NCBI RefSeq assembly: GCF_001577365.1
Contig: NZ_CP014513.1
Location: 62,001 to 126,000 of the forward strand
DNA from: Frondihabitans sp. PAMC 28766
GTDB taxonomy: Bacteria > Actinomycetota > Actinomycetes > Actinomycetales > Microbacteriaceae
Length of the DNA stretch: 64,000 nucleotides
Reading direction: 5' to 3'
The translations under genes were made by a program, and so were the position numbers. Below are positions 49,257 to 53,511 of this stretch, one piece after another (position 1 is the first letter of the stretch; each line of letters opens with the position of its first letter). The notes under the pieces were generated by a model. The model had not been told where the DNA came from, searched no databases, and worked only from the letters and a program-made list of their open reading frames with translations.

Positions 49257-49922
49257 ATGACCACCATCGCCATCGTGGGCGCAGGCTCTGGCCTCGGCCT
49301 CGCCGTCGCCCGCCGCTTCGGGCGCGAGGGCTTCTCCGTCGCCCTGATCTCGCGCAACCAGGCTCGTCTCGACGACCTCGCCGCCACCCTCGAAGCCGAA
49401 GGCATCACGGCTGCCGGCTTCACCGCGAACGTGCGCGACACCGACTCCCTGCGGACCGCTCTCGAGACCGCGTCCGAGCAGCTCGGCCTCGTCGAGGTGC
49501 TGCAGTACAGCCCGCTGCCCGCCAAGGAGTTCATGCGCCCCGTGCTCGAGACGGTCGCCGCCGACCTGGTCGGGCCGATCGAGTTCTCGGTCTACGGGCC
49601 GGTGACGGCCGCGCGCCAGGTGCTGCCGGGCATGCGCTCTCTCGGCCGCGGCACGATGGTGTTCGTCAACGGAGCCAGCGCCGTGCGCCCGCGCGACCGC
49701 GTGACCGGCACGTCGATCGCGTTCGCCGGCGAGAGCGCCTACGCCGAGCTGCTGCACGAGGCGGTCGCCCCCGAGAACGTGCACGTCGCCCAGCTGATCA
49801 TCCCCCGCGGCATCGGCGGCGGCGAGCCCTCGCACGAGCCCACCACCATCGCCGACAGGATCTGGGGCATCCACGCCGACCGCGGTGACTTCCGCACCTT
49901 CGTGGCGCCGCTCGACCTCTGA
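49257..49922 (+). CDS. Short-chain dehydrogenase-like protein
   Basis: A 221-residue Rossmann-fold protein. The cofactor motif is IAIVGAGSGLGLAVARRFGR, with the Arg/Asn pair (LISRNQARL) that favours NADPH. The region of the catalytic triad has Ser in VFVNGASAVRP and Tyr in GESAYAELLHEAV, but the usual Lys four residues after the Tyr is a Leu, so it is an atypical SDR and its activity is uncertain. GGAAGGA lies six bases before the ATG. It is divergent from the LacI-MFS operon and may be controlled by the same repressor. Confidence 0.82.
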   Translation: MTTIAIVGAGSGLGLAVARRFGREGFSVALISRNQARLDDLAATLEAEGITAAGFTANVRDTDSLRTALETASEQLGLVEVLQYSPLPAKEFMRPVLETVAADLVGPIEFSVYGPVTAARQVLPGMRSLGRGTMVFVNGASAVRPRDRVTGTSIAFAGESAYAELLHEAVAPENVHVAQLIIPRGIGGGEPSHEPTTIADRIWGIHADRGDFRTFVAPLDL

Positions 49923-49924
49923 CT

Positions 49925-49994
49925 GCGACACCCGACCTTTCGGCCGAGGTCCCAGCGCCGCGGCGCTGGGACCTCGGCCGATTTCCGGGGTCCC
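49925..49994. repeat. Dispersed palindromic element, copy 3 (40-bp perfect core)
   Basis: Bases 49941-49980 (CGGCCGAGGTCCCAGCGCCG and its exact reverse complement) are a perfect palindrome. The flanks (CGACACCCG...TTCCGGGGTCCC) match copies 1 and 2. It lies between two co-oriented genes, the SDR and the peroxidase. Confidence 0.8.
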
Positions 49995-50067
49995 ACCGGC
50001 AAGCGGGTCGCCTGCGAGGGGCCCCGCCGCACTGGCGCACCGCCCGCAGGCACGGCACGATGGGGTC

Positions 50068-51185
50068 GTGCACTCATTGGCCTCCGGCGACCGGACCCCG
50101 ATCGCGACGCAGTCGATCGACGCGCCGCTGTCACGGTCGGCGATCTTCCTCGTTCTGAGCATCGCACCGGGGCAGGTTGCACTCGAGGCCGTCCGCGACG
50201 GGCTCTCGGGGTATCCGACCTGGTCAAGACCGTGTCGTTCCGCGATCTCGGCGGGCACCTCTCGTGCGTCGTCGGCATCGGGCCTCAGGCGTGGGACGCC
50301 CTCAACCCCGACGCCCGCCCGGCCGAACTGCATCCCTTCCCCGTGCTGAGCGGGGCCCGGCACACGGCGGTGTCGACGCCCGGCGACCTCCTCTTCCACA
50401 TTCGCGCCGAGCGCGAAGACCTCTGCTTCGAGTTCGAGCGCCTCCTGCTCGACTCCCTCGGCGACGCCGTCACGGTGGTCGACGAGGTGCGCGGCTTCCG
50501 CTACTTCGACACCCGCGACCTGCTCGGCTTCGTCGACGGCACAGCGAACCCTGTCGGCGACGACGTCCTCACGAGCGCGGTGATCGACGGAGACGACGAC
50601 CCCGTGTTCGCCGGCGGCAGCTTCGTGGTGGTGCAGAAATACCTCCATGACGTCGCCGCGTGGAACACCCTCACGACCGAGCAGCAGGAGGCGATCATCG
50701 GCCGCTCGAAGCTCGACAACGTCGAGCGCGACAGCGACGCCGAGCCGTACCCGTCGCACAAGTCGCTCGCGACGATCACCGACGAGACCGGCCGAGAGTT
50801 CGACATCCTGCGCGACAACATGCCGTTCGGCCGCCCGGGCCAGGGCGAGTTCGGCACCTACTTCATCGGCTACGCCGCGCGCCTCTGGGTCGTCGAGCGG
50901 ATGCTCGAGCGCATGTTCGTCGGCGACGAGCAGGGCCGCTACGACAAGATCCTCGACTTCTCGACGGCCGTCACCGGCACGACCTTCTTCGTGCCGCCGC
51001 TCGAGATGCTCGAGAGTCTGGGCGAGATCGACGACTCGGGCGAGGCCGACGACGAGGCGACCTCTGTCGACATCACCCCGAGCAGCACCGGCACCCCCAC
51101 GACGACCACAGGATCCGACGGCTCACTCGGCCTCGGATCCCTCCGACGACCGACACCGGCGTCGTCCTCCGAAAGGACATCATGA
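50068..51185 (+). pseudogene. DyP-type peroxidase, encapsulin cargo, single-base frameshift
   Basis: A heme peroxidase of about 372 residues when repaired. The N-terminal frame gives QSIDAPLSRSAIFLVLSIAP and RDGLSGYP; it breaks at 50215-50217, where one base is missing (YPD-LVKTV). The second frame continues SFRDLGGHLSCVVGIG, the distal-site motif GFVDGTANP (GXXDG), YPSHKSL with the probable proximal histidine, RDNMPFGRPGQGEFGTYFIG and FFVPPLEMLESL. Near the C-terminus, after a Thr-rich linker, DGSLGLGSLRR is the cargo-loading peptide; eleven further residues follow. As written, translation from GTG 50068 would stop early, while an internal GTG (50232) opens the rest. Its stop overlaps the encapsulin ATG. 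Confidence 0.92.
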
Positions 51186-51994
51186 TGGACCACCTGCTCC
51201 GCTCCCACGCCCCGATCACCGACCTGGCCTGGAAGGCCCTCGACGAGGAGGCCTCCGCCCGGCTCGCGCCCGCGCTCGGCGCACGCAAGCTCGTCGACTT
51301 CACCGGCCCGCTCGGCTGGGAGCACTCCGCGACCAACCTCGGCCGCGTCGGTGCGGTCGTCGCGGCACCGACCGAGGGCGTCATCGCCCGGTCGCGCGTC
51401 GTCCAGCCGCTCATCGAGGTTCGCGCCGACTTCCGCATGTCGCTCGACGAGCTGCTGACCGCGTCGCGCGGCGCCAGCGACCTCGACTTCTCGGCCCTCG
51501 ACCACGCCGCCGAGCACTTGGCCGAGACCGAGAACGCCGCCGTCCTCGCCGGCTGGGCGCAGGCAGGCATCGTCGGGGTCTCGGAGGCGAGCCCTCATGA
51601 TCCTGTCGTCGTCGACGGCTCCCCGGCCAGCTACGCGGCGGGCGTCGCCGAGGCCGTGGCGACTCTCAAGCGCAACGGCATCGGCGGCCCGTACGCCCTC
51701 GCCGTCGGCCCGCTCGACTGGGTTCGCGTGATCGAGTCGAGCGAGCACGGCGGCTATCCGCTCGAACGGCACCTCTCGAGCGTGCTCGGCGGCCCGATCG
51801 AGTGGTCGCCCGGCTTCTCGAGCGGCATCGTGCTGAGCCTCCGGGGCGGCGACTTCCTGTTCGAGTCGGGTCAGGACGTCTCGCTGGGCTTCGCCTCGGC
51901 CGACGACACCTCGGTGAACCTCTACCTCGAAGAGTCGTTCAGCTTCCGTGTCGTGACCCCTGAGGCGGCGATCGCGCTCTCCGTCGCCGCGTGA
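51182..51994 (+). CDS. Encapsulin nanocompartment shell protein (family 1)
   Basis: A 270-residue HK97-fold capsid-like protein. It starts MMDHLLRSHAPITDLAWKAL and contains LAPALGARKLVDFTGPLGWE, QPLIEVRADFRMSLDELLTA, GGPYALAVGPLDWVRVIESS and the E-loop/A-domain end SLRGGDFLFESGQDVSLGFA, all diagnostic of family 1 encapsulins. Sixty copies normally form a 24-nm T=1 shell that encloses the tagged peroxidase. ATG 51182 overlaps the peroxidase stop (ATGA); ATG 51185 has better spacing from AAAGGA. The peroxidase just upstream carries the matching loading peptide, so shell and cargo are one operon. Likely role: protection against oxidative stress. Confidence 0.96.
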   Translation: MMDHLLRSHAPITDLAWKALDEEASARLAPALGARKLVDFTGPLGWEHSATNLGRVGAVVAAPTEGVIARSRVVQPLIEVRADFRMSLDELLTASRGASDLDFSALDHAAEHLAETENAAVLAGWAQAGIVGVSEASPHDPVVVDGSPASYAAGVAEAVATLKRNGIGGPYALAVGPLDWVRVIESSEHGGYPLERHLSSVLGGPIEWSPGFSSGIVLSLRGGDFLFESGQDVSLGFASADDTSVNLYLEESFSFRVVTPEAAIALSVAA

Positions 51995-52665
51995 AGGCGG
52001 TTCCGCAGCACACGGCCCTCGGGCCGAACGCGGCAGCGCGGCTGTCGGCGCTCCTCGACGGCGGCGACCGCGTGCTGCTCGGCATCGTGGGCAGCCCCGG
52101 CGCCGGCAAGTCGACACTCGCCGAGGCAGTGGTCTCGGCGACCACTGCGCAGGGCGTCGAGGCCGCCTGGCTGCCGATGGACGGCTTCCACCTCGCCGAC
52201 GTCGAGCTCGACCGGCTCGGGTTGCGGGCGCGGAAGGGCGCCGAAGCGACCTTCGATGCGGCCGGCTACGTCGCGATCCTGCGCCGTGTCGTCGCGAGAC
52301 AGGATGCCGTCGTGTACGCCCCGGCCTTCGACCGCACCCTCGAGCAGCCCGTCGCGGGCAGCATCCCGATCCCGTCGACGGCTCAGCTCGTGGTCACCGA
52401 GGGCAACTACCTGCTCGCCGACGGGCCGCGGTGGGGCGAGGTGAGCGCGATCCTGACCGAGTCGTGGTTCTGCACCGTCGACGACGAGCTGCGCCGAGAG
52501 CGACTGAGGCAGCGGCACGTGCGGTTCGGCAAGACGCCGCAGGATGCCACGGCGTGGGTCGCCCAGGTCGACGAACCCAATGCGGTGGCCGTCGCCGCCA
52601 CTCGGCCGCGCGCCACGGTCGTGCTGAGCCCCTCAGCCGATGGCCGCTGGGACCTCGTCGCCTGA
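51991..52665 (+). CDS. P-loop nucleoside/nucleotide kinase family protein (uridine kinase/PRK-like)
   Basis: A 224-residue P-loop kinase. Walker A is GIVGSPGAGKSTLAEAVV, followed by the substrate block WLPMDGFHLADVELDRLGLR and KGAEATFDAAGYVAIL; YAPAFDRTLEQPVAGSIPIP and VVTEGNYLLADGPRW complete the pattern of the actinobacterial uridine-kinase/pantothenate-kinase-like family (also YggC/FrcK-like). The substrate could be a sugar, nucleoside or vitamin. It starts with GTG inside the encapsulin stop, so it is the third gene of the peroxidase-encapsulin operon, an uncommon partner. It converges on, and slightly overlaps, the end of the XRE regulator gene. Confidence 0.86.
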   Translation: MKAVPQHTALGPNAAARLSALLDGGDRVLLGIVGSPGAGKSTLAEAVVSATTAQGVEAAWLPMDGFHLADVELDRLGLRARKGAEATFDAAGYVAILRRVVARQDAVVYAPAFDRTLEQPVAGSIPIPSTAQLVVTEGNYLLADGPRWGEVSAILTESWFCTVDDELRRERLRQRHVRFGKTPQDATAWVAQVDEPNAVAVAATRPRATVVLSPSADGRWDLVA

Positions 52666-53511
52666 GACGAACTCCGTCGCGGCCCAGCTGGCGAGCAGCT
52701 GCAGCGCCGTGGCCGACGACGAGGCGGGCTCGGCCGAGTAGGCCAGGAAAGTGAGGCCCGGGTCCATCGTGAGCTCCATCGCCTCGAACGACAGCGTGAG
52801 ATCGCCGACGACCGGGTGGTGGAACCGCTTGGAGCCCGCACGGTGGCGGTAGACGTCGTGCTGGGCCCAGCGCACGCGAAACTCCTCGCTGCGCGTCGAC
52901 AGCTCGCCGATGAGATCGGTCAGGCCCTTGTCGAACGGGTTGCGGCCGGCCTCGGCCCGAAGCGAGGCCACGACGCCGTCGGCGATCTGCTCCCAGTCGA
53001 GGTAGAACCCGCGAGCCCTCGGGTCGAGGAAGGCGAAGCGCGCCGAGTTGGGGCGGCGGGCCGGGTCGAAGAAGATCATCGAGTAGAGCGCGCGGCCCTG
53101 CTGGTTGGACGCGAGGAAGTCGGTGCGGGCGTTGCGCACCCAGGCGGGGCCGTCGATCGCATCGAGGAGGCGCTGCACGGTCGGGCGGATCTGCTGGCTC
53201 GACGGCTTGCGGCGCGTCGTCGAGCTGGCGTTGGCGACCCGAGCGAGGTCGAAGAGGTGCATCCGCTCGATGTCGTCGAGCTGAAGGGCCCGGCAGACCG
53301 CCTCGAGCACGCTCTCGGAGACGCCCGCGAGGTTGCCGCGCTCGAGACGGACGTAGTAGTCGACACTGACACCGGCGAGCATCGCAACCTCTTCGCGGCG
53401 GAGGCCTGCGACGCGGCGATGACCGCCGAAGTCGGGCAGGCCGGCCTGCTGGGGCGTGATCCGGGCACGCCTCGTGGCGAGGAAGTCGCGCACCTCGGTC
53501 TTGTTGTCCAT
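52633..53511 (-). CDS. XRE family regulator with MmyB-like ligand-binding domain
   Basis: A 292-residue regulator. The helix-turn-helix is RRVAGLRREEVAMLAGVSVD and YYVRLERGNLAGVSESVLEA. The C-terminal MmyB-like domain has PAWVRNARTDFLASNQQGRA, RFAFLDPRARGFYLDWEQIA and HHPVVGDLTLSFEAMELTMD. Such proteins often control an adjacent SDR; none is divergent here. The ATG at 53511 is six bases after TACCGT (minus strand), and a palindrome GTTGTC-N5-GACAAC (53503-53519) covers the start codon, so autoregulation is likely. Its last 33 bases overlap the end of the kinase gene on the other strand. Confidence 0.9.
   Translation of the reverse strand: MDNKTEVRDFLATRRARITPQQAGLPDFGGHRRVAGLRREEVAMLAGVSVDYYVRLERGNLAGVSESVLEAVCRALQLDDIERMHLFDLARVANASSTTRRKPSSQQIRPTVQRLLDAIDGPAWVRNARTDFLASNQQGRALYSMIFFDPARRPNSARFAFLDPRARGFYLDWEQIADGVVASLRAEAGRNPFDKGLTDLIGELSTRSEEFRVRWAQHDVYRHRAGSKRFHHPVVGDLTLSFEAMELTMDPGLTFLAYSAEPASSSATALQLLASWAATEFVSGDEVPAAIG

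Follow-up and report, generated by a model that had tools for sequence, protein, structure and literature searches.

In the family 1 encapsulin operons described from Mycobacterium, Brevibacterium linens and Klebsiella, a DyP-type peroxidase with a GSLxIGSLK-type tag is encoded upstream of a Linocin_M18 shell protein, and the consensus of this tag has been derived from 1193 DyPs (passages of PMC10960027). The peroxidase and shell genes are stated to overlap stop to start in M. tuberculosis (a section of PMC11676171). The locus described here has the same gene order and the same type of overlap. It differs from the known DyP operons in that its shell lineage lies nearer to ferritin-type shells, and in that the reading frame of the peroxidase is broken in this assembly. 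It is found within a stretch of 64,000 nucleotides (the window) from the genome of Frondihabitans sp. PAMC 28766 (Microbacteriaceae, the host family), which is assembled as 4.77 Mb in 4 contigs. In window positions, its features are:

49940–49981, no strand assigned, perfect 19-bp hairpin between the short-chain dehydrogenase gene and the peroxidase gene
50068–51185, forward strand, DyP peroxidase gene, N-terminal and main parts in two frames
50068–50211, forward strand, N-terminal part of the peroxidase, in the frame of 50068
50208–50211, forward strand, run of four G at the peroxidase frame change, a one-base offset relative to relatives and a probable assembly error
50212–51185, forward strand, main part and C-terminus of the peroxidase, in the second frame
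51117–51149, forward strand, cargo-loading tag DGSLGLGSLRR in the C-terminal region of the peroxidase
51150–51182, forward strand, eleven-residue tail PTPASSSERTS between the tag and the peroxidase stop codon (51183–51185)
51185–51994, forward strand, family 1 encapsulin shell protein
51991–52665, forward strand, nucleoside or nucleotide kinase of the PRK09270 type

The shell protein of 269 amino acids passes the NCBIfam model NF041155 with 254 bits against a cut-off of 100, and its Pfam match is to Linocin_M18 (PF04454, 232.6 bits, cut-off 24.3), as is characteristic of a family 1 shell; it also has solved shell relatives. The primary cargo gene of a family 1 system, a DyP bearing the tag DGSLGLGSLRR, is immediately upstream. 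There is a possible alternative start for the shell at ATG 51182, and ATG 51185 agrees better with the start in relatives. The main part of the peroxidase passes TIGR01413 (266.6 bits, cut-off 100.5), and both DyP domains score above cut-off on it (PF04261, 90.7 bits; PF20628, 172.3 bits). The N-terminal part alone gives no Pfam match. Solved relatives of the peroxidase in the PDB comprise DypB (3qnr) and encapsulated DyPs. With these family matches and solved shells, the reading of the locus as a DyP-encapsulin operon given in the preliminary description is supported. Its assignment of the peroxidase to the DyP family is likewise correct, but 50068–51185 is not the single reading frame that it was taken to be, with the N-terminal part lying in another frame.

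Upstream of the peroxidase there is a gene for a short-chain dehydrogenase, from which it is separated by the hairpin. The region 49925–50000 folds with a calculated energy of −57.2 kcal/mol (z = −7.8). The genome has 11 copies of the 16-base half-site of the hairpin, with two instances of a facing pair, and the control has none; the hairpin is one copy of a dispersed palindrome, and it may separate transcription units. A scan of 49850–52750 for promoters and terminators returned no site of either kind. At the downstream end, the kinase gene shares a 33-base 3′-end overlap (52633–52665) with a convergent gene on the reverse strand (52633–53511), which encodes a regulator containing an MmyB-like domain.

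For comparison we assembled 87 encapsulin loci among the matches listed, drawn from surveys of the host family, the phylum and the order together with five loci from named genomes. Encapsulin is present in 31 of 398 host-family genomes, 38 of 396 from the phylum and 25 of 297 from the order, in collections that hold one genome per species. The flanks extend about 1.5 kb for most loci, and as far as 5 kb for those from named genomes; two shells (L035 and L106) are identical, and may be one genome counted twice among the 87. In 58 of the 87 listed loci, our own included, a DyP gene lies upstream of the shell gene on the same strand, and the strict tag pattern is present in 53 of those 58.

The tag is followed by eleven further residues, as had been described, but this is not the oddity that it was thought to be. 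All 23 scored relatives from the host family have residues after the tag; counted from the six-residue tag core there are 13 in our peroxidase and 2 to 36 in those relatives, with 13 or more in 10 of the 23. Scoring covered 56 of the 58 loci with an upstream DyP, two being left out, and among these listed matches a single one ends no more than one residue beyond the core, so that the view of the tail as unusual is rejected. Loci from outside the family (L073–L088) have shorter tails than the 13 residues that follow LGLGSL here, with 4 to 6 in 13 of the 14 counted (L086 has 1). Of the 56 scored loci of the list, 42 show an overlap between the start of the shell gene and the stop of the peroxidase gene, and 53 have a ribosome-site-like motif, which in 48 is inside the peroxidase frame. 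In our locus this motif is GAAAGGA (51171–51177), within the tail codons of the peroxidase. Read plainly, the tail is a consequence of the overlap between the peroxidase and shell genes. In many DyP operons outside the host family (L073–L088, L108–L119) it is the tag codons themselves that hold the ribosome-site-like motif of the shell gene, for example LKG encoded as CTGAAAGGA and the like, as found by reading and not counted. In such operons one stretch may thus serve both as loading tag and as translation signal.

A coding-frame model built in this analysis places the peroxidase frame change at 50208–50219, and the gene is interrupted by a one-base offset near 50208. Between two homologous points in the two halves the spacing is 164 bases, yet in each of the 27 comparable loci it is divisible by three. 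These are the other loci in which both halves were matched, 23 of them from the host family; the remaining 31 comparison rows were uninformative, having no match to the N-terminal part, and one of them is a second view of our own locus. Within the 27, one locus from the host genus (L003, genome G006) has its DyP gene in three frames with further breaks downstream, so either that assembly or that gene is broken too.

Could the offset be a true lesion of this strain, leaving the shell empty or repurposed and the kinase unrelated to it? The departure from all 27 relatives is what such a lesion would produce, and a second DyP-type domain is encoded elsewhere in the genome (contig C1, 1509941–1510474). 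Yet the main part has remained open over more than 970 bases and retains the tag and both DyP domains, and breaks of the same kind occur elsewhere in the assembly. Scanning 400 kb, an 8% sample of the host genome, gave 14 candidate frame breaks, compared with 1 in 400 kb of one control of the same genus; in smaller stretches there was 1 in 32 kb (G001), none in 32 kb (G006), and none in 16 kb of either G013 or G095. Four calls fall within the window, comprising the known DyP break, at least one false call and two with a possible start nearby; the false call, at 51107, coincides with the true boundary between the peroxidase and encapsulin genes. Five break pairs out of the 14 were searched against NCBIfam, and each of the five proved to consist of the two halves of a single family: RNA polymerase β′, glutamine synthetase adenylyltransferase, UbiB, aldo-keto reductase and fumarase/aspartase. 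The broken genes, each with a frame offset, are at L129:6513–10369, L132:3350–4764, L137:3795–6739, L141:4868–6369 and L143:4574–5574, and include rpoC. The only form in which this gene (RNA polymerase β′) was found is a pair of adjoining fragments that do not share a frame, which should be intolerable for a living cell. Given such breaks in rpoC and the other genes, a sequencing error is the most likely cause of the one in the peroxidase gene, as judged from the assembled sequence rather than from reads, and we consider a genuine lesion unlikely. If the break were real, the shell would be without its native cargo.

The frame change sits at the run of four G, where a ribosome might be programmed to slip. 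All 27 comparable relatives can be read with no shift, and similar breaks are found in unrelated genes of the same assembly; programmed frameshifting is so improbable here that we have rejected it. Runs of bases were also considered as the cause of the breaks in general. A run of at least four was present near 6 of 8 inspected breaks (of the 14), compared with 51% of random 90-base stretches, and at this background a link is not shown.

The third gene passes NF006743 (267.4 bits, cut-off 227), while its three Pfam matches all lie below cut-off. It has a solved relative in PDB 3c8u, deposited as a fructokinase, with which it shares MDGFH and EGNYLL, and together with GSPGAGKS it retains both the nucleotide-binding and the family stretches. 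In accord with the preliminary description, the kinase starts inside the encapsulin stop codon, at GTG 51991 with a 4-bp overlap as GTGA. Start-in-stop overlaps are common in the window: 8 of the 24 junctions examined, that of the kinase included, would permit a start codon whose first base immediately precedes the stop codon of the upstream gene. There is no clear ribosome-site motif directly upstream, and the overlap taken with this absence suggests real translational coupling of the kinase to the shell. The kinase may therefore have a role beside the shell that is specific to the strain.

It had been proposed that the kinase is a third member of the operon, an accessory recruited to make or modify a small molecule for the encapsulated peroxidase. 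The shared strand, the 4-bp overlap and the lack of an obvious ribosome-site motif of its own are all compatible with this, and passages of PMC8346489 report non-cargo accessory genes in other DyP operons: short-chain oxidoreductases, cupins, DUF1345 proteins and others. The word kinase occurs three times in that source, and in the one passage covered it refers to the xylulose kinases of family 2. Against the proposal stands the linkage survey. Among the matches listed, our locus is the only one of 87 with the kinase, which is beside none of the 86 other encapsulin loci; nine 16-kb stretches surrounding further encapsulin genes (L164–L172) do not contain it either, and the two genomes of the same genus that have the DyP-encapsulin pair lack it at that locus. 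There is accordingly no conserved operon type of DyP, encapsulin and kinase in the 86 listed loci and nine stretches covered. Kinases of the PRK09270 type are carried by 218 of 398 host-family genomes, including 7 of 7 from the host genus; a position behind an encapsulin gene was seen in no other locus examined, among the matches listed. Conversely, neither encapsulin nor DyP occurs within about 1.5 kb of any of 35 other kinase loci examined. The contexts of the kinase in other genomes are varied, and 3 of 10 such loci adjoin apparent genes of sugar transport or sugar oxidation, as judged by eye with no family search.

Co-occurrence tells the same story. The kinase is present in 17 of the 31 host-family genomes with encapsulin (our own included) and in 201 of the 367 without (odds ratio 1.00, Fisher p = 1.0), so that across the 398 genomes the two co-occur at chance level. 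Nor does the kinase sequence contain a loading tag. The gene that follows encapsulin is itself variable: in the 87 listed loci it is on the same strand in 38, on the opposite strand in 45 and undetermined in 4, and the 38 same-strand genes fall into 30 groups, of which the largest has five members and one contains our kinase alone. Apart from the kinase, too, no downstream gene proved to be conserved: the biggest group of similar genes comprises five of the 87 listed loci. In 15 of these 87, including our own, the next gene begins on the same strand within 30 bases of encapsulin; close neighbours of this kind are not rare, which cuts both ways for a role of the kinase. Taking linkage, co-occurrence and the lack of a tag together, we reject the kinase as a third operon member, and very little credence is left for the accessory role. 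The preliminary description had asked for a survey of related genomes and had named linkage in this strain alone as what would speak against its proposal; with one genome per species, that is what we find. The kinase is best read as a working metabolic enzyme that lies behind the operon by chance.

We constructed a tree from 54 of the 87 shells (L001–L035 and L072–L122), of which 37 are associated with DyP, 10 are of the ferritin type and 7 are others. The 25 DyP-associated shells from the host family form one clade (support 98/92). This clade is nested in a series made up of the 10 ferritin-associated shells and stands apart from the 12 other DyP shells. Our own shell is the first branch within the 25; the branch holding the other 24 has support of 89/78, so the position of our shell as the deepest branch of the DyP-carrying clade is not firm. 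A single clade of all 37 sampled DyP shells was rejected (AU p = 6.5e-5), in a test weakened by having been run after the tree was seen. The ferritin-type label was assigned to cargo from sequence motifs by script. Two of the ten such cargos were checked and matched the encapsulated-ferritin family (E = 6e-25 and 4e-23, below the curated cut-off), and one compared with solved encapsulated ferritins gave a match. Six encapsulins with no DyP nearby (L166, L167, L168, L169, L170 and L172) have a ferritin-like cargo directly upstream, as judged by eye in all six and by family search in two.

The likeness to encapsulated ferritin (EncFtn) systems of family 1 can be seen in the closest host-family shell (L004, genome G013), which is 65% identical to our own. 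Its cargo matches TIGR04535 (87.5 bits, below the cut-off of 125) and solved EncFtn chains, and carries LGIGSLR, whereas the cargo in our locus is a DyP. The peroxidase tree, with 39 sequences, has a fully supported branch that sets the 25 from the host family on one side. Here our peroxidase falls in a group with five others (96/85), which include those from its own genus, so that the two trees, of shell and of cargo, are not alike in every detail.

The nesting of DyP shells among ferritin-type shells and the rejection of a single DyP clade suggest a cargo switch. Most simply, this would mean that a tagged DyP was acquired by a lineage of ferritin-type shells; the tree is unrooted, and the direction depends on the root. 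We lean towards the view that the DyP compartments of the host family arose by cargo replacement of encapsulated ferritin, independently of the DyP shells in the other families sampled from the order, class and phylum. A literature search on encapsulin cargo swaps gave no match, which does not show cargo switching to be unpublished, and one on encapsulin in Microbacteriaceae also gave none.

Overall, we conclude with high confidence that this is a standard two-gene DyP-encapsulin operon, with the kinase as bystander and a frame break that is most likely a sequencing error. By analogy with the family, the shell protein would assemble into a closed compartment and capture the peroxidase through the tag DGSLGLGSLRR, and the enclosed enzyme would oxidize a substrate with H2O2. 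The peroxidase gene continues beyond the tag until it overlaps the shell gene, whose ribosome-binding site therefore falls within the final peroxidase codons, and the two proteins are probably translated in step. The kinase, with the same direction and a 4-bp overlap, is probably co-transcribed and would function elsewhere in metabolism.

A kinase-bearing encapsulin operon is thus removed as a false lead, and the many frame breaks in the host assembly call for caution in its use. The shell tree also offers a case in which a switch of cargo between nanocompartments for iron storage and those for a peroxidase, perhaps eased by the loading tag that they share, can be tested.
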